A DNA stretch of 64,000 nucleotides, from assembly GCF_000375485.1 (NCBI RefSeq), contig NZ_AQXE01000007.1, forward strand, positions 119,735 through 183,734, in the 5' to 3' direction. Numbering within the stretch: the first letter of the stretch is position 1; every line of letters starts with the position of its first letter. Origin of the DNA: Desulfovibrio oxyclinae DSM 11498. GTDB taxonomy: Bacteria; Desulfobacterota; Desulfovibrionia; Desulfovibrionales; Desulfovibrionaceae. Under the pieces are notes generated by a model. That model ran no database searches. It was not told the origin of the DNA and saw only the letters and a program-made list of their open reading frames with translations. Shown one piece after another: positions 11,147 to 35,018 of this stretch. The position numbers and the translations under genes are program-made.

Positions 11147-11320
11147 CGGTGTCTCCGTTGCGACCATTTCTGAACCTGCCGATTTACTTACGTCATTCCC
11201 GCCCTCGTTGCAATTGCGGTCGCACGCATCATGTCCCGGAAGGTATCGCAGCGTTGCCAAAAGGATATTTGCCGTTTCACCCGCCCCGGAATACGAAATG
11301 ATTTACAGGAGGTAGAGACA

Positions 11321-12319: not shown

Positions 12320-12422
12320 GGGGCACCTCCCGTGGCTTGCGCGGGGACTATGGACGAGGCCGCAGTGAAAAGCAACGGCCATTTTGCATCGCTTTCCATC
12401 GATGAGAACCCAAAATTTGCTG

Positions 12423-12469: not shown

Positions 12470-12545
<76 letters not shown>

Positions 12546-12616: not shown

Positions 12617-12634
12617 TGTCCGCTATGTGTCCGC
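12617..12634. repeat. Candidate integrase arm-type site, left end
   Basis: TGTCCGC occurs twice here with 11-base periodicity (12617 and 12628). The 18-base block matches 34813-34830 near the other end of the island at 17 of 18 positions in the same orientation. Paired heptamers near both ends are what arm-type binding sites of lambda-like integrases look like. The block overlaps the stop codon of the integrase gene. Confidence 0.5.
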
Positions 12635-16043: not shown

Positions 16044-18233
16044 TTAGGCGCGCAAATGGGATAAAGCCTTGATAGCCCCTTCAACATCTAAAATGCCGAC
16101 ACTGCAAGCTGCATCGAGCAGGCCGTCATCAAGAAGATAGTCGAATTTTTCTTTGCCTTTCCCTTCCAGAGTATGGATCAGGGCCATCGGGTCTGGAAGC
16201 GAGCTTTTCAGGATATTGTTGATGGCTTCATTGAAGTCTGCTGGCGATACCTTATGGGCCGTGAACACCGGACCTACATAATCGACCGAAAGCCCCGACT
16301 TGAGCAGAATAAGAAAGATCGTGAAGCAGATTCGATCCCCTTTCCAGACAACAAAAGTCGTGTCGGTACCCTTGGGCAAAACTCCTTGATGCTCCAGGTC
16401 GGCTTCCGCGTATGCCTTTCGCGCTTGGGACAGCAATTCCTGACCTTGTTTGTCCAAAAATGAGGGGAGTGCTGTTGCCTTAAGACAATTCCGCATCTCT
16501 TCGCGCACCCTGTCATGCACGAACGATCCGCCGCCACCGTCGAATTTGGGGAGTTCGCCGCCTGTGGCGGGTGACACCAGCACCTGTTTTCTCTCTTCAT
16601 CATACGATTTGATGATCCAGCGCCGTCCGGCAAATATCAAAAATGAATCGGGAACTATCGGATAGACCGTAGTCAAGGTCCCAAGCGTCTTTCCTTCAGA
16701 AACGATGCTCACTTCCTCCGGGGAAGTGAAGGCGGCGTAAAAGGTGTAATGCTCGACAATTCGTTCACCCTTTCTGCCTAGGAGTAAGGTTCCGTCGCCA
16801 GCTTGTAGAAGGACTTCCTTCCCGCCGAGCACACGCAAGATGTGTTTAAAGACCTCGGGGGCAATATGGTTGAAGGGGCCGGTCCCGCACAATGCGTTCC
16901 ATGCGGCTGCGGGGTTCATCCCTCCATGTTGTGATATCGAAGACAGAAGTTGCTGGATGAATGTTGAGAGATGCAGCCGGTTGGGGAGTGGGGGTTCATT
17001 CCAGCCCTGAGCCAAAAGCTGTATCATGGCCACGGCCTGGACTGTCCTCAGGCGCAGCTTGTCGAAGAGCGACAATTCGGTATCCCATTCGGCTTCCCGG
17101 ACGTAGGCGCGGAGTATCGCCGGGTCGCCTTCCTTCCTTCCAGAACGTCCGATGCGTTGGCAGAGGCTTGCGACCGAAGGGGGAGAGCCTATCTGGGCGA
17201 TGCTTTTCACGCTTCCGATGTCTATGCCAAGCTCCAAGGTGTTCGTGCAAAGGACCGATGTGGGGAGGCGATGCTTTTTCAGACGTTCTTCGACTTCTTC
17301 CCGGATTTCCTTTGAGAGGCTGCCATGGTGCGGGAAAAATTCATTGGGTACCCGTGCCGCTTCACTGGTTCTGCGGAGCATGTCGGACAAGAGTTCAACG
17401 TTTTGCCGGCTATTGGCGAAAGCAAGGTTGTTGCTGCCCCTGAGCGTTGTGAACAGGTGACTGCCGATCGCCTGCCACACGCTTTCCTCATTATGATCCG
17501 GACCATCGGATTTGGTTTCAACATATCCTCGGACTTGAATCTTCAGTTCTCTTCCACCTGTTTTCGATTCGATGATGTCGCAAGGCAGGGAGCCGTCATG
17601 GCGCAGGAAATCCGAGGCGATGGATAAGTCGCCCAAGGTCGCGCTCAGCCCGATACGGGGGATCTTTCTCCCTGCCGTCATCTCTACTCGATGCATGAGG
17701 CTTTGCAACTGCATTCCCCGCTCGGTCCCTATGAACGCATGCAGTTCGTCCACCACGATTCTTCTCAGTGAGCGAAAGGCCTTCCGCAGTTCCGCATGAC
17801 GTCTGACGAATAAAGCCTCAAGTGATTCGGGAGTAATGAGCAGGATACTTGACGGAGTGCTTAGGGCCTTACCTTTTCTGGATGTGGAAATGTCGCCGTG
17901 CCAGGCAAAGACCGGCACATCCGTATTGCGGGTGACGCCTTCCATCCGCTGGAACTGATCGTTGATCAGCGCCTTGAGGGGGATGATGCCGAGTATGCCG
18001 ACAGCCTCGGGCTCAGCTCTCAAGACGTCGCTTATCGCGGGAAGAAACGCCGCTTCGGTTTTTCCTCCCGCAGTCGAGGCAGAAATGATGACATCCCGAT
18101 TGCAATCGAGGATGGAGCCTATCGCCTGTTCCTGGATATCCCGAAGGCTGGTCCACCCCTGTTTCCATATCCATCGTTGGATGGACGGGTGAAGGAGTGT
18201 GAAGCCCCTAGATTCTGAACGTTGCGAGCTCAT
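16044..18233 (-). CDS. sngC: Lhr-like DEAD/DEAH helicase (SngC of a Shango-type defence system)
   Basis: A 729-residue superfamily 2 helicase. Motif I is SASTAGGKT (to residue 59), motif II DELH (162-165), motif III LSATLG, then CTNTLELGIDIG (motif V) and QRIGRSGRK (motif VI); a ~300-residue C-terminal domain of Lhr/BrxHI type follows. The start ATG at 18233 lies within the end of the ATPase gene (26-base overlap); a longer frame to 18422 is only the shadow of that gene. TerB protein, BrxD-like ATPase and helicase in this order are the three components of Shango, an anti-phage system. Its mechanism is not known; nucleic-acid unwinding is inferred. Confidence 0.75.
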   Translation of the reverse strand: MSSQRSESRGFTLLHPSIQRWIWKQGWTSLRDIQEQAIGSILDCNRDVIISASTAGGKTEAAFLPAISDVLRAEPEAVGILGIIPLKALINDQFQRMEGVTRNTDVPVFAWHGDISTSRKGKALSTPSSILLITPESLEALFVRRHAELRKAFRSLRRIVVDELHAFIGTERGMQLQSLMHRVEMTAGRKIPRIGLSATLGDLSIASDFLRHDGSLPCDIIESKTGGRELKIQVRGYVETKSDGPDHNEESVWQAIGSHLFTTLRGSNNLAFANSRQNVELLSDMLRRTSEAARVPNEFFPHHGSLSKEIREEVEERLKKHRLPTSVLCTNTLELGIDIGSVKSIAQIGSPPSVASLCQRIGRSGRKEGDPAILRAYVREAEWDTELSLFDKLRLRTVQAVAMIQLLAQGWNEPPLPNRLHLSTFIQQLLSSISQHGGMNPAAAWNALCGTGPFNHIAPEVFKHILRVLGGKEVLLQAGDGTLLLGRKGERIVEHYTFYAAFTSPEEVSIVSEGKTLGTLTTVYPIVPDSFLIFAGRRWIIKSYDEERKQVLVSPATGGELPKFDGGGGSFVHDRVREEMRNCLKATALPSFLDKQGQELLSQARKAYAEADLEHQGVLPKGTDTTFVVWKGDRICFTIFLILLKSGLSVDYVGPVFTAHKVSPADFNEAINNILKSSLPDPMALIHTLEGKGKEKFDYLLDDGLLDAACSVGILDVEGAIKALSHLRA

Positions 18234-19515
18234 CGTCACCCGAGATGTCCTCGATCGATTCCGCACCGCCGTCATCCTTGGTAATGCAAACGGCCTGCAA
18301 CAGTTCCTGCCAGGAAGCCCCGGGGTTTTGCTCAAGGATCGCCAGCAGGTCAAGAAAGGCCTTGATGGTGTTACGGGGAGTCCGAAAGTAGTCTTGACCG
18401 ATGGTATTGTTGCAGTGCTCAAGGAATTTCGTCAGGGCGTCATCGGGTAAGGCGTAGGCGTCTTCATTGCCGCTTGCGAAAACATTACGCAACCGCTCCA
18501 GAAGCACATACATGTCCTCCGGGGTGAGGTTGGCCAGGTTGATGACCGGGCCGCTCATATCGACATAGTTGCCCGAGGCGAAGGTGTTCAGGGCGAGCCG
18601 TGATTGAAGGGCTTCATAACTGAACAGGCCGCGCCTTGTGTCCAGGAGGAAATCGGGTGTGCCTCCCATGAGGAAAGCAAGGCCTTCGCAATTGGCCTGG
18701 AGGCAATCGTTCAGTATCCGCAGCAGTTGTTCGTAGTTGTTCTTGCGGCTGACAGAGTTGCTGATCTTATAGAGATTGACCATTTCGTCGATGCAGACGA
18801 GCAACCCTCCGTATCCGGCAAGGCGCACGAATTGGGAAAGGATTTTCAAATGGTCGTACATGGATGCATCATCGACGAATGTCCTGACGCCGAGGGCGGC
18901 CCGGGCGTCGGTTTTTGTCGTGAACTCTCCGCGCAACCAACGGATCGCATTCTCCTTGGCCGCTTCATCGCCCGAGTCATGGCCTTCCCAGTATGCATTG
19001 ATGACATCGGCAAAATCGTAGCCACCAACAAGTTCGGTCAGGCTTTGAAGGCGTGTGTGGATGACTTCAGTTGTCTGTACCCCGTTGGCTTTGGATTCCT
19101 GGATGGCAGTTGAAATGAACTTTTCAACGATGGAAGACAAGGCTCCGCCTTCAGCCTTAGCTCTTGTAGCCATATTCCTGACAAGTTCTCGGTAGAGAGA
19201 CTGGGTTTGCCCTTTGGAAGAGTAGAGGCGGCGTTCAGGGGTCATGTCCGCGTGAAGTGTGACGAGCTTCTTTTCAAGCGCGACAGTGCGGACAAGATTC
19301 ATGAAGAAGGTTTTCCCCGAACCATACTCGCCTATAACCATCCGGAAGGAAGAGCCTCCGTCAGCGACCGTGTTGATGTCTTGCAACAGGCTTTTGACCT
19401 CCAACGCTCTGCCGACCTGTACATGCTGAAGGCCAATTCTGGGAACAACTCCGGATCGAAGAGATTTGATTATTGCATCGCGCTCTTTGGTGCGCAGTTT
19501 TTTGGGGTTACTCAT
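18208..19515 (-). CDS. sngB: BrxD-like P-loop ATPase (SngB of a Shango-type defence system)
   Basis: A 435-residue ATPase of the DUF2791/BrxD family, related to ORC/Cdc6-like AAA proteins. Walker A GEYGSGKT is at 62-69 and Walker B LLVCIDE ends at residue 244; a conserved MGGTPDF segment and winged-helix-like C-terminus follow. The same family is found in type 2 BREX, but no PglX, PglZ or PglW gene is present here. It overlaps the TerB gene by 4 bases (ATGA) and the helicase gene by 26 bases, so the three are translationally coupled. It probably loads or controls the helicase. Confidence 0.78.
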   Translation of the reverse strand: MSNPKKLRTKERDAIIKSLRSGVVPRIGLQHVQVGRALEVKSLLQDINTVADGGSSFRMVIGEYGSGKTFFMNLVRTVALEKKLVTLHADMTPERRLYSSKGQTQSLYRELVRNMATRAKAEGGALSSIVEKFISTAIQESKANGVQTTEVIHTRLQSLTELVGGYDFADVINAYWEGHDSGDEAAKENAIRWLRGEFTTKTDARAALGVRTFVDDASMYDHLKILSQFVRLAGYGGLLVCIDEMVNLYKISNSVSRKNNYEQLLRILNDCLQANCEGLAFLMGGTPDFLLDTRRGLFSYEALQSRLALNTFASGNYVDMSGPVINLANLTPEDMYVLLERLRNVFASGNEDAYALPDDALTKFLEHCNNTIGQDYFRTPRNTIKAFLDLLAILEQNPGASWQELLQAVCITKDDGGAESIEDISGDDELATFRI

Positions 19516-21749
19516 GCCAACATCTCCTCAAGGACCTCTCGGTTGACTTCTATGTTTTCTTCTTCAAACAGCACTTCATCATCGAAATTATCAAGCGCAG
19601 CATCATTCAGTGATTCCAAGACGCCAGACGGCATCAAGCCGAATTTTTCAGCCAAAGTGTTGAAACTGTCCTTGTCCCAGGCATCCTGTTCGCCGAGTGC
19701 GACAAGGATGTTTTTGTACGGAGCGTCAAGCCCATAAAAATCCGGGGCTTCTTCCGCTTCGGGCTCCGGCTCCGCGACATCCTCCGCGAAGACCTCTTCT
19801 AGGAGTTCGGCAACCTCCTTCGTCTGTTCGCGTTTGAGACGCAGACGGTCGGCATCAAGTTTGACATCGGCTTCGGGAGTTGCGTCCGGGGCAGACGGGA
19901 TGGAGTAGCCGGTCTTGCCGGTGTCCGCATCTTTTACGGTGACAGGCTGGCTGTCGCCGTTGGCGAGGAAACGATGAATGTGGGTCTGGACGTCACTCGG
20001 TTCCATACCCATGGTTTTGTATATTTTTTCCAGTATTTTTATTTCCTTGGGATGAATGATTCCATCCGCTCCAGCCACACTGATCAGGAAATCGGCAACC
20101 TTTTCACGCTGTGCGGCACTGAGCCCTGACAGCTTTGCCTTCATACCGGCCATGCTCGGCGGACGGGCAATTATCCATTCGAAAAAAGCTGATAGGCGCA
20201 ACGATTCTGACAGGTTCAAGCCTAAAGAAGAGGCTAGGTGAGAATTAAGGGTTGAACGTTCTTCTGGCGATACGTCGCCATCTGCGGCTGCTACCAACCC
20301 TGTCAAGTGAACAAGGGCGATAGCTTGGTGGTAGCCTGTGCCGGGAGCGTCGTCCTTACCGTCAGGTAACTTGAAGAGGACGATTTCGTCGCCGGCTGCG
20401 GGAGTCCGTCCACCATAGCGAGGGTCTGGCTCCATTCCCGTTCCAAGACTACCAAGAATGTTCGCGAGTTGGCTCACTTCTGCCTTGGTGAATTTTCCGG
20501 GTGTCTTTGTCGGCCACATATCAATCAAGTCGCTTACCAGGGCGGTTCCCACATCCCCATTCGCCAGTGCACTGCTGCATAGTTGGCGCAAAACGTCCAA
20601 CTCAGTAGACTTGCGTTTCATGGCAATGGAGCTTGGCAGAAGAGAAATGCCGGAAATTCCTTTTGCCGCTTCCGGATCTTTGCCCATGAGGCGGCTATAG
20701 GAGTCCAGTTCAGACATGCTTTGATCCACAAGCTTCCACAGATTCCCCAGAGGGCGTTTAAGCTCGCTTGGGTCCGGAATGTCAACAGTCGAACTGAACC
20801 CTCGAAGTGATGAGCTTGCGGGATGATATTCGAGCCTGACCTTTTTCTTGTTTGGGGGGACAATCATGCCTTCCCCATATTTTTCCCGATAGAGAGTCTT
20901 GAAAAGGAATGCGAATTCATGCGGGCAACGCTTTGCCGGTACCCGCAATCTGGTTTCCGGGTCTCTGAGTACCCATTCCAGGGCCAAGTCCCAAGGTATC
21001 GGTTTTCCTTCGGCAACGTTTCTGCCAAGTTCTATTTTGAAGCTTGGCGGATATACTCCTCTGGCAATTTTGTTGGGGTTGATTTCCGATTTGTGGGTGT
21101 CTTCACCGATCAGGACACTGACAAGACCTAAGAAGTTCTCACAGTATTGCCTGAATGAGCGGTTGTCGCCGTAGATGGTCAGGAGGTCACTTAGCTCGTC
21201 ACGTATGTGGTGCAATTCGTCCTGCGCCATCTTGCCATGCAATACACGTCTTTCCAGTCCGTAAAAAAATAGGAAGACATATCCTATATAAGCACCTTCG
21301 ACCCGCCGCCCCTTGACAAGCCAGTCGATATAAGCGGCCCTGGCTTCGGGTGAGATCCGGCTGTATGAAGGCCAGTAGGACATCCCATGATTATCCGTGC
21401 ACGACTTGTCGGAGCTTCTGGAAAGATCGGGGTTGATGAGGGCCGGGTCGGCACCGTACCCGCTCAGTGCGCCAAGCCCGGTACCAACGTAAAGCATCCC
21501 TCCTTTGATGGCGTGCCCGTGTATCTCGACAGACTGGCCCGGAGGAATCCAGCACTCCTCATCGGACTGTGTCGCTTTGAAACTGTAATCATCATAGTCG
21601 TCGTAATCGTCATGGGAATAGGTGACCCGGACCTCGATGCTGTTGGCCAAATTTTCGAGTTCTTGCTTGGCCTTCTTTTTGAAGGAGGCTTTTTTGATGA
21701 AATGAACAATGAGCCAGATAACCAAGACTGCAACGATGGCGTTTCCCAT
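19512..21749 (-). CDS. sngA: TerB_N-TerB-TerB_C protein with membrane anchor (SngA of a Shango-type defence system)
   Basis: A 745-residue protein. Residues 2-18 form one hydrophobic helix, so it is likely membrane-tethered. The TerB_N domain (about 75-280) contains GMSYWPSYSRISPEARAAY; a TerB domain (about 490-600) contains two acidic helical repeats, AADGDVSPEER and GADGIIHPKE, of metal-binding type; the last ~125 residues are TerB_C. TerB domains are tied to tellurite and phage-stress responses. The start follows AAAGGATTTCATC. It is first in the coupled sngA-sngB-sngC unit and has its own candidate promoter. Role as phage sensor is inference. Confidence 0.78.
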   Translation of the reverse strand: MGNAIVAVLVIWLIVHFIKKASFKKKAKQELENLANSIEVRVTYSHDDYDDYDDYSFKATQSDEECWIPPGQSVEIHGHAIKGGMLYVGTGLGALSGYGADPALINPDLSRSSDKSCTDNHGMSYWPSYSRISPEARAAYIDWLVKGRRVEGAYIGYVFLFFYGLERRVLHGKMAQDELHHIRDELSDLLTIYGDNRSFRQYCENFLGLVSVLIGEDTHKSEINPNKIARGVYPPSFKIELGRNVAEGKPIPWDLALEWVLRDPETRLRVPAKRCPHEFAFLFKTLYREKYGEGMIVPPNKKKVRLEYHPASSSLRGFSSTVDIPDPSELKRPLGNLWKLVDQSMSELDSYSRLMGKDPEAAKGISGISLLPSSIAMKRKSTELDVLRQLCSSALANGDVGTALVSDLIDMWPTKTPGKFTKAEVSQLANILGSLGTGMEPDPRYGGRTPAAGDEIVLFKLPDGKDDAPGTGYHQAIALVHLTGLVAAADGDVSPEERSTLNSHLASSLGLNLSESLRLSAFFEWIIARPPSMAGMKAKLSGLSAAQREKVADFLISVAGADGIIHPKEIKILEKIYKTMGMEPSDVQTHIHRFLANGDSQPVTVKDADTGKTGYSIPSAPDATPEADVKLDADRLRLKREQTKEVAELLEEVFAEDVAEPEPEAEEAPDFYGLDAPYKNILVALGEQDAWDKDSFNTLAEKFGLMPSGVLESLNDAALDNFDDEVLFEEENIEVNREVLEEMLA

Positions 21750-21825: not shown

Positions 21826-24800
21826 TTAGGATGAGTCTTTTTGAATAAGTCTTTCTAAGACACCTTCTGGTGTAGACAAATTGAAGTGCCTCAGGGCTGT
21901 AGGGAAATATCGCATTTGCGCCCACAGATTTTTGTCTCCGACGATGAAACAACGCTTCTTGGCACGGGTGATGGCCACGTTTAGCAGGTTGGGCTTGGAC
22001 GCGACCCATTGAGCGGCCCCGATTTTGGAGTGGCTGTCTGCGCCGAGGATCATGATGACGCAATCTTCTTCCTTGCCCTGGAACGTATGAACCGTTCCTA
22101 TGCGGTCTTTGCACCAGTCGTTAACTGTGCGTTTTGATGGCTTGGTTGTTGCGCCGTATATGGCCCAATCGCCTTTCATTTTTTTCTGAAGCTGCTTCTT
22201 AATGGCTTTGAAAGGAGAAATAACATAGATGGCAGGGAGTTCCCCGTATTGAACAAACGAGGTAATTATGAGTTTGACAACGAATTCGATCTGGCCGGGG
22301 ACAACCTGTTGTCTGCTGGTTTCCCCAGGGATGTGCACCCAAGAGCTTTCCACGGGTACAGGTGGTATGTCGGGGACGGATTTGTGGGGAAGCCCATAAA
22401 TCATCTTGCCTTCATATGCGATGTTGTTGGAGACGGAGAACATGGGCTCGATGCAGCGCCTATGCACTCTCAGCGGGCTACCTATCCATGTTTTGCTTTC
22501 CCCCTCAGAAGACGATGCGTACGTGCCATATTGGTTGCAGGCATCGGCCAGATTCTGAGCCGAAACCGAATCCGGAGCATAGTCCCCTTCACTCGTATGC
22601 GAAGAAAGTGATGCGATGGATCGAATCAGGTTGGCGGGAACAGTGAAGACCGGCTCGATCTGGAGCGGGTCACCAACCACAACAGCGTTTTGAGCTCGCC
22701 ACAATGCGCCGACTGCCGCCTGCGGAACGGCTTGCCCGGCTTCGTCGATGAACAGCCAGCCAAGAGAGTTGGGGCCGACGTCTTTGAATTGCTTGGCAAA
22801 GGATGCGAACGTCGTCGAGACAACTGGCACGATCATGAAAAGACTTTGCCAGATCGTAAGCGCATCCTGTGCCTCCAGACGGGTATGCCCTTTAAGGTAG
22901 CTGCTGATTGCCATGATGTTGCCAGCAAATCCGGCGGTGCCCCCGTTGATTTTGCTTTTGCCGACATCGGCAAGCCAGGCTTCGTGCAATGACAAGGCCG
23001 CGCAAAGGAGTTCGGTACGGAGTGTCGAGAGCCTTCTGTCGTTCCAGAGACCTCGTAGTTGATATTCGTCAGTTTCAAGTATTTCAGGAGTCCGAGGGAT
23101 GGCAATGTCGCTAAATCTTTTTTTGAATTCTACGAGTCTTTCCTGCTTCGATATCCATTCCTGACGTAGCTTTGCCAAACGCCCTGAGGCTTTCTGATAT
23201 TGATCGTTTGCCCAAGTTTTCTGATCTTGGAGAGAGTCCAATCTGCTTTTTACCGCCGTAATATTCGCTTCCAGGCTCTTTTGTCTCGATTCAAGGACAC
23301 GTGCGGCTGACAGGTAGTTTCTAGTTGACGGGAGTCGGAAGAGTCGGCTGAACCAGCCTGGTCTCTGTCGGTCAAGCACAAGCCGATCGTTTTCGGCCAG
23401 ATGGATCGCACGCTGGATCTCAGCTACTTGTTCATTTGATTCAGAGATATCCTTTTTAATTCTGGTTAGCTCTTCCTTATATCTTTCAACATCTTGGAGT
23501 GCTGCACCGATATATGTCTCTTCTGTCTGGCCGGTTAGTTCTTCTACGAGGTCAGCGAACGCGGTTCGTATCTCAAACTCGTCATCAACAATCTTCTGTT
23601 TGGAGAGAAAGGTGTCCCGAGCCTCATCAAAGGTTGGTCCGCTGTATTTTTTAATCCAGTCGTAGATGTTGAACAGGCCCAACTTGTGTGCTGGGGCTTT
23701 GTTGTTTTTATCAGGATAAAACGCAAAGCCTTCGTTGAATTTTTTTCTGTTAATATAGTTGCCTAGGGCGCAGGCGATGAGTCCCCATTGTGATTCGTCG
23801 GGGGGAAGGGGGGTGAACTTATTATCCTTGTTTTTGGTCGCTATTTTTTGTGCCGTAGGCTGGATATAAGTTTGCTCACGCCAGCATTCTCCCAGAGACT
23901 TTGTTTTCGGGAGTTCCTTGGAGATGTTGTTGACGGCTGCATTGTTTGACGACGCGACGACCATTTCGAAGCCTGTAAGCTCAGGCCTGAGAGTGCGGGC
24001 CCATATTCCATTCTCCAAGGGCAATTGTTTCCTGCCGTCGAAAGCTGATGATGCAGTCCGGCAGGACGCCAGGACCTTCGCCCTTCGCACTATGTTTTCG
24101 GCTATTAAATCGCGCAATAAGGTCGTTTTGCCTGTCCCAGGAGGACCATTGACCGAGAATATGCCGGTTTTTTCGTTGGCCTCGAATGCCATGTTGATGG
24201 CAAATTGCTGCATGAGGCTCATCAGGTGTTCGGGGGTGTCGGGCCAATGCCCTTGATTGAACTTCCCGGGGTGCAGTTTCTGTTGGAGCACCCCCGGGCC
24301 TTCTTCGGAGTAGAGGTCGACCCGTTTAGAAGGGCTGTGCGGCGTGAGGTATTCATACAGCGAACGGGATATCCTGGCCGCTTGGACCTGCCGCATTGCT
24401 CGTTCGATATCCTGGATGAAAAAACTGTTGAGGATATCGACCTCCGGTTCGTTCTGGTCATCGCCATCCTGACCGTCGTCCTCGGTGTCTTCTTCATCGG
24501 TCTCATCGGTTTTTTCATATGACTCCTGCCACTGGATGACTGCGGGAGCAATGATGTTCTCGGGAGTGAATTGCGCCCAATCGTAGAGCAGGTCGCACAG
24601 GTCGAAAACGTCTTGGGCCGTAAGCGGAAGTGGGATGTCCGTGATTTCCCGTTGATTGGCCAGATTCTGTAATTTTTCGACTAACCGCCCTTGAGCCAAG
24701 GCAAAATCATTTGCGTTCAATCCTTCAAGCCCGGAGCGCTGAATCGTTCCCAATGCCCAGGGCAGCGTTGAGATTGATATCTCGTCATAAAGGGGTTCAC

Positions 24801-25188
24801 CGAAATCATTGAGCTTGATTCTGGCGAAACAGGTGGGCCCTTCCAGGTCTCCGCGTTCCGTGTTTTCGTATATGTCGTTAGAAGGGGAATCCAATTCGAG
24901 TGCCTTGTCGCAAATTGGGGCAAGCTCGTTTTTGTCAAACACACCAAGGAATAATGAATATCTGGGAACCTTGCCGTCGGAACAGTTTGGGAAGTTGAAG
25001 ATGTTCTCCCCTTGAAGAAGAGCATCCTCATGCAGCCAGTTCGCTTTTTTATACTGATGGGTATCTTGAATGACGCTGCGGTCAAGATCGAATGGAATGA
25101 AAAACTCTATTTTGTGCCACGAATTGAGAATGGCGAGAATTCGTTCCTTGTCCGACTCGGTGAGTGATGTCATGCCGTGGTGATCCAT
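21826..25188 (-). CDS. Large superfamily 1 helicase (UPF1/Dna2-like)
   Basis: A 1120-residue protein. The N-terminal ~340 residues are unassigned and include an acidic stretch at ~226-249. The helicase core begins with GPPGTGKT (348-355) and is split by a long coiled coil (about 560-700). After it come motif II FIDEAGQAVPQ, motif III VVGDPLQIEP, HTFQGKEEDCV (motif V) and NVAITRAKKR (motif VI). Such SF1B helicases act on DNA or RNA and are frequent in defence islands. It starts 24 bases after the stop of the PHP-ATPase gene, so the two are an operon; whether it works with the Shango trio 76 bases downstream is open. Confidence 0.85.
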   Translation of the reverse strand: MDHHGMTSLTESDKERILAILNSWHKIEFFIPFDLDRSVIQDTHQYKKANWLHEDALLQGENIFNFPNCSDGKVPRYSLFLGVFDKNELAPICDKALELDSPSNDIYENTERGDLEGPTCFARIKLNDFGEPLYDEISISTLPWALGTIQRSGLEGLNANDFALAQGRLVEKLQNLANQREITDIPLPLTAQDVFDLCDLLYDWAQFTPENIIAPAVIQWQESYEKTDETDEEDTEDDGQDGDDQNEPEVDILNSFFIQDIERAMRQVQAARISRSLYEYLTPHSPSKRVDLYSEEGPGVLQQKLHPGKFNQGHWPDTPEHLMSLMQQFAINMAFEANEKTGIFSVNGPPGTGKTTLLRDLIAENIVRRAKVLASCRTASSAFDGRKQLPLENGIWARTLRPELTGFEMVVASSNNAAVNNISKELPKTKSLGECWREQTYIQPTAQKIATKNKDNKFTPLPPDESQWGLIACALGNYINRKKFNEGFAFYPDKNNKAPAHKLGLFNIYDWIKKYSGPTFDEARDTFLSKQKIVDDEFEIRTAFADLVEELTGQTEETYIGAALQDVERYKEELTRIKKDISESNEQVAEIQRAIHLAENDRLVLDRQRPGWFSRLFRLPSTRNYLSAARVLESRQKSLEANITAVKSRLDSLQDQKTWANDQYQKASGRLAKLRQEWISKQERLVEFKKRFSDIAIPRTPEILETDEYQLRGLWNDRRLSTLRTELLCAALSLHEAWLADVGKSKINGGTAGFAGNIMAISSYLKGHTRLEAQDALTIWQSLFMIVPVVSTTFASFAKQFKDVGPNSLGWLFIDEAGQAVPQAAVGALWRAQNAVVVGDPLQIEPVFTVPANLIRSIASLSSHTSEGDYAPDSVSAQNLADACNQYGTYASSSEGESKTWIGSPLRVHRRCIEPMFSVSNNIAYEGKMIYGLPHKSVPDIPPVPVESSWVHIPGETSRQQVVPGQIEFVVKLIITSFVQYGELPAIYVISPFKAIKKQLQKKMKGDWAIYGATTKPSKRTVNDWCKDRIGTVHTFQGKEEDCVIMILGADSHSKIGAAQWVASKPNLLNVAITRAKKRCFIVGDKNLWAQMRYFPTALRHFNLSTPEGVLERLIQKDSS

Positions 25189-27993: not shown

Positions 27994-28140
27994 TTCAGGA
28001 GTCCTTGACTTGCTGGTTGTTTGACTGTGTATCCATGTAACCCCGCTGTGGGGAGTTTGTGAAGAGTGTTGAAGTTGTTTAAGAAATATGTTTTATCTAA
28101 ATCGCAATGCGAATACAAGTTTGTCGTTTTTGAGGTCTGT

Positions 28141-28872
28141 ATGAATCGATTGGATATGTGCATAGAAGTCTTGAAGACAACAAAGAAGAAAATGCACGTC
28201 AAAGAGATCGCCGAGATTATGGTAGTTCGCTACCCGGCCGAATTCGGCAATGAGAATGTTGAGGGGCTTGCTCGAAAAGTCGGAGCGTCAATCAGCAGTC
28301 ATATCCGCAGCGCGAAACGGAATGCCATGATATCCAAAGTGCCGAATGGACGGGGCGGGCATCTATCGGGGATGTACAAGGTCCGGCAGAAACGGAAGAA
28401 GGCCGTGCCTGCCAAGCTGCCGAAAGTCACAACCGGCTATACCGGCAAGGCCGGTGAATATGGCCTGTTAAGTGAATTGCTCTTCAGAGGGTACAATGCT
28501 TCGATTATGACGGTCGATGAAGGTATCGACGTTGTCGCCTCCAAGAGAAACAAGTATTTTCACATCCAAGTTAAGACAGCCAACGTGAACCAGAGTGGGA
28601 AATATCAGTTCACCATTCCGGCAAGCAGCTACAAATCGCACGATGCCTCCACGACCTTTTACGTCCTTATTACGCGACGGATTATCAATAATTTCTGGAG
28701 AAGCGATTATATCATTTTGTCTAGCAGCGACATCGCCCGTTTTATTGCCACTGATGTGATCAATAATGGCAAGAAGTACTCGTTGCATATCCGATATGAA
28801 GGGAATAAGTGTATTCTGAATAAAGAAGAGGATGTTACGTATTTTTTGAATAATTTTGAGCCAATGAAATAG
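28141..28872 (+). CDS. HARE-HTH plus PD-(D/E)XK nuclease-like protein
   Basis: A 243-residue protein. Residues 1-85 look like a HARE-HTH domain (MCIEVLKTTKKKMHVKEIAE, then a wing ending SGMYKVR), a DNA-binding module common in restriction and modified-base-sensing proteins. Residues ~98-200 resemble a PD-(D/E)XK fold: Glu106 in GKAGEY, Asp130 in DEGIDVV, and Gln143-Val-Lys145 in HIQVKT. The start at 28141 follows GAGG TCTGT; a longer frame to 28066 lacks domain support. It is divergent from the PHP-ATPase operon and upstream of the peptide cassette. A sequence- or modification-specific endonuclease is inferred. Confidence 0.7.
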   Translation: MNRLDMCIEVLKTTKKKMHVKEIAEIMVVRYPAEFGNENVEGLARKVGASISSHIRSAKRNAMISKVPNGRGGHLSGMYKVRQKRKKAVPAKLPKVTTGYTGKAGEYGLLSELLFRGYNASIMTVDEGIDVVASKRNKYFHIQVKTANVNQSGKYQFTIPASSYKSHDASTTFYVLITRRIINNFWRSDYIILSSSDIARFIATDVINNGKKYSLHIRYEGNKCILNKEEDVTYFLNNFEPMK

Positions 28873-28919: not shown

Positions 28920-28948
28920 TTGACTTAATGTTTGGCAGCCTCTAAAAA
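28920..28948 (+). promoter_or_regulatory. Candidate promoter of the peptide/E1 cassette
   Basis: TTGACT (28920-28925), 17 bases, TAAAAA (28943-28948); predicted start near 28955, giving a ~49-base leader before the peptide ATG at 29004. Confidence 0.5.
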
Positions 28949-29003
28949 TTGTCTGTCGATAATGAATTCTCGTAAATGAAAATTTAACCGATTGAGGATC
29001 GAT

Positions 29004-29216
29004 ATGCAGAAAAAGAGTGATGAGCACATGGAGAAGTTTGGGTTTGCCGTTGTTTCCGACGAAGACGGCATGGAGAGCGTCGCCTACACGGCTTCTTGTT
29101 CCGGCAGCCGCTCCGATTGCTGCACCAGGACCTGTTCCGCGGATGCCAACTTCGCTGAAAACGCCGAAGCCTGGGAGCAGTACCTGGCCGTTAAAGGTGG
29201 ACAGGTTCAATACTAG
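29004..29216 (+). CDS. Small Cys-containing peptide, possible precursor for E1-like enzymes
   Basis: A 70-residue protein. The ATG at 29004 follows GAGGA with a 5-base gap, so it is preferred to a TTG at 28992. The N-terminus is acidic/charged (MQKKSDEHMEKFGFAVVSDE). The middle has four cysteines in pattern C-x6-CC-x3-C (Cys32, 39, 40, 44) flanked by Ser, Arg and Thr. The C-terminus is acidic and aromatic, ending VKGGQVQY. It is the first gene of a tight plus-strand unit, 12 bases before the first E1-like gene. I do not recognise the family. Position and composition suggest a RiPP-type precursor or a peptide tag; a small metal-binding protein is also possible. Confidence 0.55.
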   Translation: MQKKSDEHMEKFGFAVVSDEDGMESVAYTASCSGSRSDCCTRTCSADANFAENAEAWEQYLAVKGGQVQY

Positions 29217-29228
29217 CAGGCAGACACA

Positions 29229-30353
29229 ATGACACATTTATCGGAAGCCTCCGCCCCGGAACTTCGAGACGGGGTGGAGGTTTTTCTTTATCCTCCAAAG
29301 GAAGAAATCTGCTCGGTTCTCTTCCTTTTTTTGTCAAACAGGCGGAGGCTGCGCATTGAATGCAAGCCCGCCTTTACCCTCTTGCTCAAGGAACTATCTA
29401 AGCCGCAGCCGCTGGCGGATTCGTTGGAACGCGCCGGGCTGGTCTTGGATGATGAAACCGAGGCGTTTCTGTCCTTTCTTGAGACTGAGGGAATCGTCAC
29501 CGTGTCCGATCCTCTCGAAACCGACCAGCTTTCGGCCGCGTATATGGAACAATACAAGCGTCAAGTGTATTTCTTGCTGGACATCCTAAAGTCTCCGGCA
29601 AAGGCCCATGAAGTCCAGAAACGGATTTTCGATGCGCACATAACGGTTTTCGGCCTGGGAGCCATTGGCAGCGGCATTCTGCAGCAACTCTGCATGATGG
29701 GATTCAGGCGGTTTACCCTCATCGATTACGCAGAGGTCGAGGAGAACGACATCGCTCGGACGCCTTACAGGATTGCTATGGATGTCGGCATGCCAAAGGC
29801 CGAGGCCGCCAAAGCGCTGGTTGAGGATTTCGCCTTTGATCCACAAGTCGAGATGCACAATGTCAGCCTCAGGACGGACACCGATCTCGGCGAGTTGGTC
29901 CAGGGAACGTCGCTTATCATCAACACCACCGATCAACCGTACGTCGGATACACCAACATCAAGCTTTCGCGTTACGCTTTGCAGCATAGCATTCCGGTGT
30001 TGGCTGCTGGTGGGTTCGACGCCCACCTTGCCTCTCTAGGGGAATTGCTGATTCCGCATTTAACACCGTGCGCGGATTGTTACGCCACGTTTTTTCACGA
30101 GAGCTTGAAGGATTGGAAGCCCATTCCCCATCCTGTAAAGGAGCGCGAAGGATGGTTCGGCGGCCTGGGCAGCCTGTCCACGTTCAGCGCCTCCACGGCC
30201 GCGCTGGATATCCTAGGCTACTTCATGAACCCGGAAGACCGAAAGGCGGCTCCCGGCGGTCGGGGCGAATTCCTTTTTCATGACTACAGCCTCGACACCT
30301 TTGTCGTCGAAAGGGACAAGGAGTGCCTGTCTTGCGGGGAGGGGCACAAATGA
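29229..30353 (+). CDS. E1/ThiF-like adenylating enzyme 1 with N-terminal leader-binding-like domain
   Basis: A 374-residue protein. Residues 1-~110 form a separate domain with the size and position of a RiPP recognition element. The E1-like fold follows: ATP loop GLGAIG (142-147), Asp166, ENDIAR (Asn173, Arg177), Lys190 and TTD (Asp235). Zinc cysteines are Cys281/Cys284 (PCADC) and Cys366/Cys369 (CLSC). ThiF/MoeB-type enzymes adenylate a peptide C-terminus; MccB and PaaA are RiPP enzymes of this fold. A GGFDAHLASLG loop replaces the usual catalytic-Cys region, so thioester formation is doubtful. It overlaps the second E1-like gene by 4 bases (ATGA). Confidence 0.82.
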   Translation: MTHLSEASAPELRDGVEVFLYPPKEEICSVLFLFLSNRRRLRIECKPAFTLLLKELSKPQPLADSLERAGLVLDDETEAFLSFLETEGIVTVSDPLETDQLSAAYMEQYKRQVYFLLDILKSPAKAHEVQKRIFDAHITVFGLGAIGSGILQQLCMMGFRRFTLIDYAEVEENDIARTPYRIAMDVGMPKAEAAKALVEDFAFDPQVEMHNVSLRTDTDLGELVQGTSLIINTTDQPYVGYTNIKLSRYALQHSIPVLAAGGFDAHLASLGELLIPHLTPCADCYATFFHESLKDWKPIPHPVKEREGWFGGLGSLSTFSASTAALDILGYFMNPEDRKAAPGGRGEFLFHDYSLDTFVVERDKECLSCGEGHK

Positions 30354-31465
30354 GCCGATATAGCGAGGAATGCTTTCGGCTCCGCCCGTCCGTCTCATTC
30401 GTGCCCATGCCGCAGGAGGGGACCTACCAATTCTTTGTTTCGGACATCAGGCAGAGCTTCAACCTTGCCTTTGCCGATGAGGATTACGTCAGGATTCTGT
30501 CCAACCTAGATGGGAGCCTGCCGTATGCCAAGCTGGCGGAAACCTACGCCCTTGATGATCGGCAACTTGTCGGGCTGGAGCGGCTTTTCGACGTCCTGAT
30601 CGAGCGGTGCGCCGTGGAAGATGTGCAGGTTGTAGCGTCCCGCGAATCCGATCCGTTTCGGCGGGTGAAGACGTTCATCGGCTCCTATGTCCCATATTAC
30701 GATGTCGAAGCCGCCTGGCAGCGGGTAGCGGATAGTCATGCTGTCGTGATCGGGGCCGGGGGCGTCGGAAGCTGGGTCGTCTCCCTGTTGGCGCAAATGG
30801 GGGTCAAGCATTTTACGGTGCTCGATGACGACGTGGTAAAGCCTCATAACCTGAACCGCTCCTTGTTCTCCAGAGATGATGTGGGAAGCCTCAAAACCCT
30901 AGCCTTGGAAAAGATGCTCAACTCGCGCCGGGATGAGTCTTATACGGTCAAGGCCGTCGAAGAGAAGCTGGAGAGCTCGGAGCGGCTGATCGCATTATTA
31001 AGGGGTGATTCGCAGTCGCAGACAGTCCTGATCAATTGCGCGGATTTTCCTTCGGTCGCCCACACGTCGGCGATCATCAACGAGGCGGCCTTTGCGCTCG
31101 ACCTGCCCTACATAATTGCCGGTGGCTACAACATGCACCTCAGCCTGGTTGGGCCGACGATTATCCCCGGCAAGACGCCGTGCTTTCACTGTATCTCGCA
31201 CGGTATGGACCAACTCAAAGTAGCCGAGATCGAAGGAGCGGAGCGTGTCGTCAAGGAACACCGCAATCTCGGGAATCTAGCCCCTTTGGCAGCGATTTCC
31301 GCATCTTTTGTCGCCAACGAATGCTTGAAGTTGTTGCTTGGGCTGCCGAATTTGAAACCGACCATGATCGGCAAGCGTGGCGAGTTCAATTTTTTCACGA
31401 AGAAACTGGTGTTGGAAGAGTATGGCGTGTGGGATGAATGTCCGTATTGTGCACGGAGGAAGTAA
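30350..31465 (+). CDS. E1/ThiF-like adenylating enzyme 2
   Basis: A 371-residue paralogous partner of the preceding enzyme. The N-terminal ~115 residues are again a small extra domain. The E1 core is canonical: GAGGVG (135-140), Asp159/160, HNLNR (Asn167, Arg170), Lys182, and NCAD with Asp232. Zinc ligands are Cys278/Cys281 (PCFHC) and Cys364/Cys367 (CPYC). The start at 30350 follows GGGGAGGGGCACAA and overlaps the upstream stop (ATGA). Two coupled, divergent E1 proteins suggest a heterodimer in which this one, with the better-conserved motif, does the adenylation and the other binds substrate; this is inference. Confidence 0.85.
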   Translation: MSRYSEECFRLRPSVSFVPMPQEGTYQFFVSDIRQSFNLAFADEDYVRILSNLDGSLPYAKLAETYALDDRQLVGLERLFDVLIERCAVEDVQVVASRESDPFRRVKTFIGSYVPYYDVEAAWQRVADSHAVVIGAGGVGSWVVSLLAQMGVKHFTVLDDDVVKPHNLNRSLFSRDDVGSLKTLALEKMLNSRRDESYTVKAVEEKLESSERLIALLRGDSQSQTVLINCADFPSVAHTSAIINEAAFALDLPYIIAGGYNMHLSLVGPTIIPGKTPCFHCISHGMDQLKVAEIEGAERVVKEHRNLGNLAPLAAISASFVANECLKLLLGLPNLKPTMIGKRGEFNFFTKKLVLEEYGVWDECPYCARRK

Positions 31466-32578
31466 ATGGGTGTTTTGTTTGATTTTTCAAAATGTTTTTC
31501 TCGTTCAATGTTTTTCATATTTGTCTTTGTTGTTGCATTAGCATTTGTCTTTTTCTTGTTGTTAACACTAAAGATAGTAGACTATTCTTTTGTTCCAAGC
31601 ATAAAAACTATAACGCAAAGCACATCTGAGTCTATGGCAAGAGGGTTTGACCCGTTTCAGACATATCGAGATTTTGTTACTACGACAACTGGCCTACTTA
31701 CTTTAATAATTGGTGCAATTGGAATAGGATCATTTATATCCTTTAGAAAATTTAAAGAAGAAGAAGCCAAGATTACTGATAGAAGAAATCAGCTTGATAT
31801 GTTTTTGAAAATTGAAGAGGGACGTAATATCTCTGAATCAGAAGCAACCTACTCTACTGCAATCAAGCTTTATGATGAGGCGGAAAGGTTACATAGCAAA
31901 TACCACATGCTATATACGTTAAGAGGCGAAGCATACTATTATAGGAATAGAACTGGTGATCTTCAGAATGCAATTAAAGATTTTGAAGTGGCTATAGAGT
32001 TAAAGAAGAATTCATCTAGAGCTTGGTTTGGGCTTGGACAAGCTCGTTTTAGGTTAGTAAGGAGAAAACATTGTAATATAAACAATCTTGAAAGGCATCT
32101 TGAGAACGAAGATGTTGCCGATTTGAAAATTGCTGACAATGAAGGGGTTATAGATAGAAAGAAAGAGACACGAGAAGCAATGGAAGACATAGAAAAGGCA
32201 ATTAGTTTTCAATACGCTGAAGCTCCTGCACGTCTTGAGCTGGGTAAAATGTATAAATCTATTGGTGATAATAAAGGCGCTCTAAAACAATACAAGCTGG
32301 CATACGAGAGCAATAAAGCACATGCTGCCTGCGGTTTTACATACGCTTTACTATGGTTGTCAGAGAACGATGATTGTTTAGAGAAAGCAAAAGAAGAAGG
32401 CATTCTCGACATAATAAGGAAGGCCAGTGTATACGATGTATACAACAGCAAGGCTGCGTATGCATTGTTGTGGTATTTATATAGCAAAGTGCCTGAATTG
32501 GGGGGCGCAGAAAAAGCCAAATCGATGACAGATTCGTTGGTCATAAACGAACTATTTGAATTGAGGGAAACTGTTTAA
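31466..32578 (+). CDS. Membrane-anchored TPR protein
   Basis: A 370-residue protein with two transmembrane helices (about 15-37 and 74-92), the short segment between them presumably outside the cytoplasm. TPR-like helical repeats fill 120-340 (for example TRGEAYYYRNRTGDLQNAI style pairs and ARLELGKMYKSIGDNKGAL). It starts directly after the preceding stop with GGAGGAAGTAA as ribosome-binding site. Base composition is strikingly AT-rich, with many AGA and ATA codons unlike its neighbours, so it was probably recruited separately. It may scaffold the cassette at the membrane or serve as immunity protein; neither is shown. Confidence 0.72.
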   Translation: MGVLFDFSKCFSRSMFFIFVFVVALAFVFFLLLTLKIVDYSFVPSIKTITQSTSESMARGFDPFQTYRDFVTTTTGLLTLIIGAIGIGSFISFRKFKEEEAKITDRRNQLDMFLKIEEGRNISESEATYSTAIKLYDEAERLHSKYHMLYTLRGEAYYYRNRTGDLQNAIKDFEVAIELKKNSSRAWFGLGQARFRLVRRKHCNINNLERHLENEDVADLKIADNEGVIDRKKETREAMEDIEKAISFQYAEAPARLELGKMYKSIGDNKGALKQYKLAYESNKAHAACGFTYALLWLSENDDCLEKAKEEGILDIIRKASVYDVYNSKAAYALLWYLYSKVPELGGAEKAKSMTDSLVINELFELRETV

Positions 32579-32580
32579 AA

Positions 32581-34755
32581 ATGATGTTTACCCTCCACGG
32601 CATAGAAACCAACAACCTCAATTCGGTTGACGTTTCCATCCCGCATGGACAGATAACCGCCGTTGTCGGCGGGAGCGGGGCGGGCAAAACCTCTTTAGCG
32701 TTCCATACACTCTACGCGCTCTGCAAGAACGAACTCGACATCATCTCCGGAGTCCCGGCCAGTCATCGTCCCAAGGTTCGAGATCATACCAATCTGCTCC
32801 CGGCCATCGCGTTGAAGCAGAAGAATGCCAACGTCAATCCACGGTCGAGCGTCTTCAGCTATCTCGGGCTCGACAAGTTGTTTCTGCCCCTGTTTGTGCA
32901 GGCCAACCCGGACATCAAGCGGAATATCCTAGCCCAGAACAATCCTGCCAACTATTGCCCGGCCTGCAAAGGGCTCGGCGTCGTCTTTCAGCCCGATCCG
33001 GCCCGGATTGTCGATCTACACAAGCCCCTTACGGACAAGCCGTTCATTTCCTGGAATAATTTCCTTTCCAATCATTACTATCCGTTACTTAAAGCCTTCT
33101 GCTCGAAGCGTGGTATCGACACAACCAAGTCCATTTCACAGTTGCCGTCCCGGCAGCAGGAGTTGCTGCTCCATGGGGCCGACGAAAAGCAGTTCCAGGT
33201 TAAGTACAAGCAAAAAAAACGCTACTGTCAGAAACAGTTTCCCTTTATCGGAGCCATCCGGGAGATTCAGGACTGCTGCGAAGATCTGCAGAAGCCGGGT
33301 AACCGGCAGAAAGCCAAGTCGTATATCGCCGAGCAGGTCTGTCCGGAGTGCCATGGAGCAAGGTTTTTTAAGGATCTCTCGAAGTACACGGTTAACGGCT
33401 GGACGATCCACGACATCCTCTTGTCGAGCTTTAATGCGTTGCTTTCTTTCATCCAATCAATCCCGACTCATGAGTTCGCAGTAAACAAATTGAAGGCCCT
33501 GGTTTCCAACGTCGTCAGGAACAACCTGGGCTACCTCGCCTCGATGCGCTCGATACCATCCCTTTCCGGGGGAGAGTTCCAACGGCTGCAACTGGCCTCG
33601 GTGCTCAACTCGGACTTCACGAATCTGCTCTACGTAATCGATGAGGTTTCTTCTTCATTGCACGTTGCGGAGTACCCGAACGTCATTTCTCAACTCCAGT
33701 CATTGAAAAAACGCAATTCCACCCTGGTCATGGTCGAACACGAACTGGAATTCATTGAGAAAGCCGACAACCTGATAGCCCTTGAGGATGGCAGGGTGAT
33801 CGACTCAACGAATTGGCTTCAAAGACAGCGGGAGGTCTCCGTTGACCGTACCAACATCGAACCACGCGGCACTATGGATTTCACAGTCCACGGCGTCCAC
33901 AATATCCGCCACCTTGATGTCTCCCTGCCCATGGGCTGTCTCATCGGCTGTTGCGGCGTGTCCGGTTCGGGCAAGTCCTCTTTTGCCAAGACCATCTCGG
34001 GCAAAACTGGCGTTGAGTACATCAGTCAGGGAACGATCCAGGGGAACAGCAACTCTACAGTGGCGACCTTTCTCAAGCTCATGCAGCCGATTGATACGTT
34101 TTTATGTAAAGCTCTGGATACTCCGCCGAAGACTTTCTTGTTCAACAACAGACCCAGCCAATGCCCCGCTTGCGAGGGCAAGGGGTATGTAGAACAGGAA
34201 GCCTCGTTTGGACATGCGTATCGTTCCGTATGCGAGGCCTGTGAGGGCAGACGTTACAATCCCGAAGTTCTTGCATACCGAATTAACTCGCTCACCGTTC
34301 ATGACATCCTGACGATGACAGTTACCGAGTTGTCGGCAGCCGGGGTGTTCGTGGAAAACAGGAAGATTGCTGCCAAATTGGAGGACATGATCAGCATCGG
34401 TCTGGGGCACCTGACCCTTTTCAGGCCCACCAGCGAACTCTCTGGCGGGGAAGCGCAACGGATCAAGCTTCTGTCTCGGGTGAAGGCCAATCTCAAAAAC
34501 ACCTTCCTCATCATCGACGAGCCCGCCAACGGCCTGGAGCGAGACGATACAAAGCGTCTGATCGGATTTCTGGACAGGCTGCTCATCAAGGCAAAGGGGA
34601 TCATGGTCATCGAGCACAACCTGTTCTTGCTGAAAAGCATGGACTACATCTTGGAGTTCGGCCCTCGCGGCGGCGACGAGGGCGGCAACATTGTTTTTCA
34701 GGGCCGCATTGAGGATATGGAAGACTCGGAGTCTATTCTCATGGATTATATTTAG
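32581..34755 (+). CDS. Reduced UvrA-like double ABC ATPase
   Basis: A 724-residue UvrA paralogue, about 200 residues shorter than UvrA proper. Both ATPase cassettes are intact: Walker A GGSGAGKT (30-37) with SLSGGEFQRLQL and YVIDEVSSSL, then GVSGSGKS with ELSGGEAQRIKL and LIIDEPANGL. Zinc-finger cysteines remain (CPACKG/CPECHG and CPACEG/CEACEG). The missing length falls in the first-half insertion region that carries the UvrB-binding domain, so normal excision repair with UvrB is unlikely. Relatives such as DrrC protect producers from DNA-binding drugs. Last gene of the cassette, 2 bases after the TPR stop. Confidence 0.85.
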   Translation: MMFTLHGIETNNLNSVDVSIPHGQITAVVGGSGAGKTSLAFHTLYALCKNELDIISGVPASHRPKVRDHTNLLPAIALKQKNANVNPRSSVFSYLGLDKLFLPLFVQANPDIKRNILAQNNPANYCPACKGLGVVFQPDPARIVDLHKPLTDKPFISWNNFLSNHYYPLLKAFCSKRGIDTTKSISQLPSRQQELLLHGADEKQFQVKYKQKKRYCQKQFPFIGAIREIQDCCEDLQKPGNRQKAKSYIAEQVCPECHGARFFKDLSKYTVNGWTIHDILLSSFNALLSFIQSIPTHEFAVNKLKALVSNVVRNNLGYLASMRSIPSLSGGEFQRLQLASVLNSDFTNLLYVIDEVSSSLHVAEYPNVISQLQSLKKRNSTLVMVEHELEFIEKADNLIALEDGRVIDSTNWLQRQREVSVDRTNIEPRGTMDFTVHGVHNIRHLDVSLPMGCLIGCCGVSGSGKSSFAKTISGKTGVEYISQGTIQGNSNSTVATFLKLMQPIDTFLCKALDTPPKTFLFNNRPSQCPACEGKGYVEQEASFGHAYRSVCEACEGRRYNPEVLAYRINSLTVHDILTMTVTELSAAGVFVENRKIAAKLEDMISIGLGHLTLFRPTSELSGGEAQRIKLLSRVKANLKNTFLIIDEPANGLERDDTKRLIGFLDRLLIKAKGIMVIEHNLFLLKSMDYILEFGPRGGDEGGNIVFQGRIEDMEDSESILMDYI

Positions 34756-34972: not shown

Positions 34973-35018
34973 AATGGCATTCAAGAGGTCGTCAGTTCGA
35001 TTCTGTCCAGCTCCACCA
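34973..35018 (+). repeat. attR: displaced 3' half of tRNA-Ala
   Basis: Copies the tRNA from anticodon loop to CCA. T-stem differences from the intact gene are paired: positions 51-63 and 52-62 are C-G and A-T here but G-C and G-C in the intact gene. Both versions could fold, so this is a remnant of another functional tRNA-Ala, most likely the original host 3' half pushed aside at insertion. Confidence 0.88.

Follow-up and report, generated by a model that had tools for sequence, protein, structure and literature searches.

A rare, mobile cassette of a conserved cysteine-rich peptide and two MccB-type adenylyltransferases, often with a class II-like UvrA, is enriched among bacterial defence genes

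A compact cassette of five genes is found in a stretch of 64,000 nucleotides of contig NZ_AQXE01000007.1 from Desulfovibrio oxyclinae DSM 11498 (the whole stretch is hereafter the window, and its coordinates are positions within it). The genes occupy positions 29004-34755, all lie on the + strand and are separated by intergenic gaps of at most 12 bases. The first gene (29004-29216) encodes a Cys-rich, precursor-like peptide of 70 aa with Cys residues at 32, 39, 40 and 44, recognized by its conservation and substitution rates. It is followed by E1A (29229-30353), an MccB-type adenylyltransferase with an N-terminal beta3-alpha3 domain and a likely C-terminal Zn Cys4 site, and by E1B (30350-31465), a second, distinct MccB-type adenylyltransferase identified by Pfam ThiF, a PDB match to MccB and its position in a tree; the frames of the two enzymes overlap by ATGA. 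The fourth gene (31466-32578) encodes a TPR protein with N-terminal hydrophobic segments (Pfam TPR, hydropathy), and the fifth (32581-34755) a class II-like UvrA without the UvrB-binding domain (Pfam ABC_tran and UvrA_DNA-bind, alignment). This gene set, with its order, strand, ATGA overlap and short gaps, had been read by a model from the letters alone (the sequence-only reading), and is borne out by the coordinates and Pfam matches. The promoter proposed in that reading is present as a sigma-70-like consensus match at 28920-28949 (+ strand), but a weak one: TTGACT-18-AAAAAT agrees with the consensus at 9 of 12 positions, and one such match was found against 0.3 expected.

The peptide and the two E1 enzymes recur together. 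A search with E1A in 297 genomes of the window's class gave seven matches at 1e-12 or better; six of them are cassettes, the window's own included, and the seventh (G256) is a partial, weak ThiF match. Two plasmids, from Moraxella and Acinetobacter, carry a peptide-E1-E1-UvrA row, which in Acinetobacter adjoins BREX genes. Genome contigs scanned against the E1A alignment yielded 32 loci. All 32 were found by E1A alone and have a peptide match directly upstream, as expected from the sequence-only reading, and 31 have full-length matches to both E1 enzymes. The titles of these 32 records name Alpha-, Beta- and Gammaproteobacteria, Desulfovibrionaceae, other delta metagenome-assembled genomes (MAGs) and one Bacillaceae genus (Robertmurraya). 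We describe 40 loci (the window, L016, L017, L020-L024 and L025-L056), which are not independent, some being near-identical (39 peptides, 35 of them distinct). L025, from a Desulfovibrionaceae MAG, has an E1A 78% identical to that of the window, and L056 is a broken Helicobacter copy.

The core of the cassette comprises the peptide, E1A and E1B, and the UvrA-like and TPR proteins are optional. The cassette is rare, patchy and mobile, being carried on islands and plasmids. A wider search for the peptide family in the class of genome G303 (369 genomes) returned only G303 itself and one weak hit, which is antisense to another frame and was taken as chance; nothing was found in the viral contigs, phages and E. 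coli genomes searched. Of 57 plasmid records in the set of weak ThiF matches four were examined; the E1 proteins of Lactiplantibacillus and Priestia plasmids, with no second E1 or UvrA annotated next to them, served as outgroups only.

In the alignment of the 39 untruncated peptides (the truncated copy of L056 was left out), eight residues are invariant, namely F14, C32, C40, C44, W57, L61, G66 and Y70 at the C-terminus; C39 and Q69 have one variant each, both in L041. The peptide consists of an N-terminal part with F14, a Cys block C32-x7-C40-x3-C44, and a C-terminal block W57..L61..G66..Q69-Y70, and it contains exactly one Trp in all 39 copies. The steps from W57 to Y70 (13) and from C40 to C44 (4) are the same in every copy, the step from C32 to C40 is 8 in 32 peptides, 9 in six and 6 in one, and the step from C44 to W57 varies from 12 to 21. 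The alignment thus points to two fairly rigid blocks with a free linker between them. In seven pairs with the window peptide, the ratio of nonsynonymous to synonymous substitution rates (dN/dS) is 0.024-0.046 in five and 0.066 in L026, the L024 pair being saturated; in six Rhodobacteraceae pairs dN is 0.006-0.050 against dS of 0.09-0.52, and four pairs with L029 are saturated. These rates show purifying selection, and the short frame picked out by the sequence-only reading is not a chance one. A comparison with PDB gave no match, and PADLOC 2.0, NCBIfam and Pfam contained no matching model, with one non-significant line in Pfam. In the peptides of L048, L052 and L054 (Cedecea, Pectobacterium and Pantoea records) the core is a variant that has a fifth Cys, CC-x3-C-x4-C. 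The peptide tail has a degenerate second copy in L053 (about 7341-7450), a fragment that lies upstream of the untruncated peptide and ends in WKDYLNINAGVLKY; a second peptide was rejected there, only this tail-like fragment being present.

Both enzymes match Pfam ThiF (E1A 3.4e-26, E1B 2.1e-35) and have MccB as their best PDB match (4.4e-34 and 2.1e-48, respectively), in agreement with the MccB/PaaA type assigned from the letters alone. In a tree of 30 E1A and 30 E1B sequences they form separate clades (supports 1.0 and 0.776), the branching of which is alike as judged by eye; E1A and E1B are two anciently separate MccB-type adenylyltransferases. Equivalents of the ATP- and Mg-binding R/K/D residues of MccB and EnfB are kept in E1A (R in 28 of 30, K and D in 30 of 30), and those of the catalytic R/K/D in all 30 E1B sequences. 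The four Cys residues of a likely Zn site are kept as well, the last one in 27 of 30 E1B sequences. They are the only invariant Cys residues of E1A; E1B has one more, in an NCAD motif. The E1A and E1B frames overlap in 25 of the 27 loci measured, some starts being set by hand.

The structural model of E1A (27 alignment rows) has a mean predicted local distance difference test score (pLDDT) of 85.6 and a predicted template modelling score (pTM) of 0.85. Its N-terminus contains three strands and three helices, with pLDDT blocks of 90-95 over residues 11-90. The beta3-alpha3 order is the topology of the RiPP recognition element (RRE), where RiPP denotes a ribosomally synthesized and post-translationally modified peptide. 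The sequence-only reading had noted that MccB and PaaA carry a leader-binding domain, and an N-terminal domain of RRE topology is seen in the predicted E1A structure. Profile searches with the N-terminal parts gave non-significant matches only; these included LynD, PqqD, a radical SAM protein and winged-helix regulators, as well as proteins unrelated to RREs. PaaA-like_N matched one of 17 members (0.0014).

Like UvrA2 and Ecm16 (PDB 2VF7/2VF8, 7SH1), the UvrA-like protein lacks the UvrB-binding domain and retains both ABC modules, the two Zn Cys4 sets and the insertion domain (UvrA_DNA-bind); unlike them, it is linked to a peptide-modifying pair and not to a DNA-intercalator cluster. Its profile aligns in one stretch to UvrA2 (2vf7) and Ecm16 (7sh1), and with a gap at the UvrB-binding part to 2r6f. 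Of the 131 residues of the UvrB-binding block, none is present in 17 cassette UvrAs, eight are present in L036 and all 131 in six canonical UvrAs. The 17 proteins form one clade with support 1.0 and L036 falls outside it, in a tree built without UvrA2 and Ecm16. The UvrA of the Robertmurraya cassette lies outside the 17-member clade and is given a far higher score by the UvrA model, which suggests that cassettes took up a class II UvrA twice. The P-loop, signature and Cys residues are invariant in 19 UvrA-like rows, and are consistent with ATP-dependent DNA binding. A canonical UvrA is additionally present in all six genomes checked.

The UvrA-like gene is present in 22 of the 40 loci and absent in 14 (L022, L024, L025, L027, L029, L031-L035, L037, L038, L041 and L043); four were not counted (L026, L028 and L030 at contig edges, and the broken L056), which gives 22 of 36 judgeable loci. 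In L022 a transposase-like gene interrupts the gene row, and the upstream flanks of L027 and L035 are short. UvrA adjoins E1B in most UvrA-bearing loci; in four Pseudomonas loci (L039, L040, L042 and L055) its gene is upstream and on the opposite strand. In L045, a Pectobacterium contig, E1B and the UvrA-like protein form a single open frame of 1096 aa (9085-12375), and their junction carries a short tandem duplication. For L111, a further class II-like UvrA in the genome of L036, no peptide motif was found and no E1 was recognized next to it.

The TPR gene was found in eight of the 40 loci (the window and L020-L026, as a fragment in L022 and weakly in L024). Each of these is near the window either in the E1 tree or in E1 identity; the record of one of them, L026, is labelled an alphaproteobacterial MAG. 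A general role for the TPR protein, which the sequence-only reading had taken to localize the product, is not supported. Hydropathy in 19-residue windows places the hydrophobic segments at starts 7-28 (maximum 3.24) and, more weakly, 70-76 (maximum 1.93). The GC content of the gene is 36% in the window and 36-41% in the six copies measured, compared with 53-56% for the window peptide, E1 and UvrA genes, and the identity of the protein is 35-40% in L020, L021, L023 and L025, compared with 78-88% for E1A, and 65% in L026. Immediately upstream of the window cassette is a gene overlooked by the sequence-only reading (28066-28872, + strand), encoding a HARE-HTH/PD-(D/E)XK-like protein by weak Pfam matches below the cut-offs; it adjoins the peptide in six of the 40 loci (the window, L020-L023 and L026). 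Both genes are taken as lineage additions. In L041 a TPR protein is encoded slightly downstream of the cassette. L024 (6782-10372) has the row peptide-E1A-E1B-TPR with no UvrA, between genes that we take to resemble leu and psp genes.

The cassette is part of a genomic island at tRNA-Ala that measures about 22.5 kb (12.5-35.0 kb), a setting that the sequence-only reading had also missed. The island is defined by the tRNA-Ala(GGC) gene (12470-12545, + strand), by a 46-bp repeat of its 3' part and by two integrase genes (12623-13810 and 14226-15185); the repeat copies lie at 12500-12545 and, at the opposite end, at 34973-35018 (+ strand, first 20 bases identical). The cargo consists, in order, of a Shango-like defence system (16044-21749, - strand), a MkoC-like helicase (21826-25188), a Ppl/TrlF family anti-phage protein (25213-27993, - strand, match 7.4e-145) and the cassette. 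The Ppl/TrlF protein exceeds the TrlF_fam_ATP cut-off and misses the Ppl_antiphage cut-off of NCBIfam. A type I restriction-modification system was considered for 16-25 kb and rejected in favour of the Shango-like assignment, given a SngA match (6.6e-87), an ATPase with a BrxC/D domain and a DEAD helicase.

Defence genes adjoin the cassette in other genomes as well. Among 20 neighbour proteins chosen by eye from 13 loci, strong matches were obtained for SngB (L020), SngA (the window), RdrA and RdrB (L045), GajA and GajB (L053), a CBASS (cyclic oligonucleotide-based anti-phage signalling system) cyclase with NucC (L033), type I restriction genes (L025, L029, L036), TmtA (L047), MkoA (L049) and Hhe/PDC-S37 (L021, L054). 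With BREX annotated in L017, at least 13 of the 40 loci have a defence neighbour, the rest not having been scanned singly. A random draw under a size limit of 80 of the 95 neighbouring open reading frames (ORFs) of at least 300 aa (21 loci) matched 91 PADLOC families at 1e-30; 80 of 139 such ORFs from 20 control windows of nine genomes, placed at round coordinates (alternate ORFs plus ten more, hand-chosen), matched eight. These figures count families and not proteins, one protein may match several models, and the two sets cover different genomes. The cassette is enriched among defence genes.

We tentatively propose that the cassette makes a modified peptide that is retained in the cell and serves phage defence, a reading that we place a little short of evenly balanced; the cassette is probably an undescribed intracellular chemical defence. 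ThiF-type enzymes adenylate a peptide carboxylate, which is attacked by Cys in the case of GrcB and by a backbone amide in the case of EnfB (PMC12250964). For IndF a dimer has been modelled in which one subunit binds the leader and the other takes up the C-terminus; here the adenylated carboxylate is attacked by the indole N of Trp, which gives an indolylamide (PMC12150305). A ring from W57 to Y70 would be far larger than the known ones. In Streptomyces, lanthipeptides that are kept in the cell and encoded in defence islands give protection against phage, and anthracyclines, which bind DNA, inhibit DNA phages (PMC12360287). Ecm16 confers echinomycin resistance and has no UvrB-binding domain (PMC10192343). 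It is because of these ThiF-enzyme, lanthipeptide, anthracycline and Ecm16 precedents together that a retained, possibly DNA-acting peptide, partnered by UvrA in some loci only, seems to us the best reading. The proposed product would share with the Streptomyces lanthipeptides a modified peptide inside the producer and genes in defence islands, and would differ in enzymes, bond chemistry and hosts; the portion of that paper drawn on here mentions no UvrA (PMC12360287).

The chemistry of the product, its target and its anti-phage activity are what we infer as follows. E1A and E1B could form a heterodimer, in which RRE-type N-terminal domains would hold the N-terminal part of the peptide around F14 and the opposite subunit would adenylate the free carboxylate of the C-terminal Tyr. 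The acyl-adenylate might then be attacked within the peptide by the single Trp, forming an indolylamide, or by a conserved Cys, forming a thiolactone; this would close a macrocycle or leave an electrophilic tail. Another carboxylate or a second step could be the task of the remaining active site. By analogy, the C-terminal Tyr, the single Trp at a fixed distance and the Cys block would fit ThiF-type chemistry closely. The product may act on invading nucleic acid or its expression, and the class II UvrA, where present, may bind DNA with ATP and either clear the product from host DNA or direct it. Anthracycline and DrrC follow a logic of self-protection that parallels that of echinomycin and Ecm16. 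A ribosomal counterpart of this logic is conceivable, in which a heterodimeric MccB-like E1 pair and a near-invariant Cys/Trp/Tyr peptide yield an intracellular macrocyclic agent against phage DNA or expression, and a class II UvrA scans DNA and spares or clears the host chromosome; we consider such a new class of bacterial immunity possible and distinctly more doubtful than the retained peptide as such.

Several observations weigh against a retained defence peptide. The proposal is least secure in its DNA target and in what UvrA does. Two UvrA-less genomes, G078 and G297, have no UvrA-like match at 1e-40 elsewhere, and together with the 14 judgeable loci lacking the gene this means that a product toxic to DNA and dependent on UvrA for immunity is not the general case. 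The immunity function suggested by the sequence-only reading is plausible in view of the missing UvrB-binding domain, but not as an obligatory one. A core so conserved would be unusual for an arms-race toxin, and would fit a cofactor too. R177 is replaced in two of 30 E1A sequences, and the RRE profile matches are non-significant (best 0.075, to a winged-helix regulator; PqqD 0.34). No leader peptidase was recognized in the window cassette or, by eye, at the other loci, so that the leader would stay on the product or a host protease would be needed. A kinase of L042, chosen as a defence-like neighbour, matched nothing, and the defence-gene neighbourhood can be hitch-hiking.

Among the alternatives, the one that survives best, and still an unlikely one, is a DNA-surveillance complex in which E1B and UvrA act together, the UvrA-like ATPase sensing phage DNA and the modified peptide being the effector or signal. 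The adjoining E1B and UvrA genes, the separate clade of 17 UvrAs and the single frame of L045 speak for it. But UvrA is optional and inverted upstream in the four Pseudomonas loci, and the L045 frame is a single case with a duplicated junction, weak evidence that may reflect assembly or a recent mutation.

Peptide-derived cofactors have precedents in pyrroloquinoline quinone (PQQ) and mycofactocin. A redox, metal or sulfur cofactor or carrier of this kind for an enzyme encoded elsewhere would account for the extreme conservation of the Cys block and tail; it is made improbable by the rare and patchy occurrence (6 of 297 genomes in the window's class, and G303 itself with one chance hit among 369), by the location on islands and plasmids among defence genes, and by the gene clusters common to loci, in which no shared partner enzyme was recognized.

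E1-type conjugation occurs in CBASS type II, and E1 enzymes beside a small protein whose C-terminal tail is invariant, in a defence context, recall ubiquitin- or Pup-like tagging, in which the peptide of about 65 aa would be a modifier activated at its C-terminal Tyr by the E1 pair and joined to proteins as a defence. PADLOC E1-E2 models match the E1 domains and only these; no E2, cyclase or deconjugase was found among the window proteins scanned, the invariant Cys residues of E1A and E1B (Zn ligands and the E1B NCAD) include no clear thioester Cys, the MccB match is far better than that to Cap2, and the tail lacks GG and leaves the Cys block unexplained. We regard tagging as quite improbable and, of the defence alternative raised by the sequence-only reading, retain the defence context and prefer a made-and-kept peptide to conjugation. 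A thiazole/oxazole-modified microcin (TOMM) was rejected, as that reading had done: no YcaO occurs among the nine window proteins scanned, and cyclo_dehyd_2 reaches 19.9 bits against a cut-off of 36.9. Bacteriocin cores are usually more variable. The least likely possibility is a conventional RiPP of the bacteriocin or antibiotic type that would leave the cell through a host transporter, with UvrA protecting the producer, in spite of the antibiotics made by MccB-type enzymes, the plasmid and island location, and the self-resistance to a DNA-binding drug given by the class II UvrA Ecm16 (PMC10192343), since the peptide is nearly constant across Alpha-, Beta- and Gammaproteobacteria, Desulfovibrionaceae and Bacillaceae-genus records, UvrA is absent in 14 of 36 loci, and an exporter or peptidase was found neither in the window cassette, as the sequence-only reading had stated, nor by eye, with no profile scan, among the shared gene clusters.

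The retained, modified peptide thus remains our preferred reading. The cassette resembles MccB, PaaA, GrcB, EnfB and IndF in having an adenylyltransferase with an N-domain of predicted RRE topology, the R/K/D set and a short precursor gene adjoining, and activation of the C-terminal carboxylate would be expected as in MccB-type RiPP enzymes. It differs from these systems in its two non-equivalent enzymes, its Cys-rich precursor of about 65 aa with a near-invariant core and tail, and its position among defence genes with no recognized exporter or peptidase and with UvrA in most judgeable loci. Mining for RRE-ThiF fusions sought clusters with a precursor, proteases and a transporter (PMC12150305) and would miss a cassette lacking these; among the matches listed in the open-access PMC literature there was no description of a Cys peptide together with UvrA and paired ThiF enzymes. 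With one peptide, two enzymes and an optional UvrA the cassette is a simple test case, and a definite bond can be predicted from the exact spacing of 13 residues between Trp and the C-terminus. If the proposal is true, ThiF/MccB-type peptide chemistry would be added to bacterial immunity, and class II UvrAs, exemplified in drug resistance by Ecm16, may have a role in defence.

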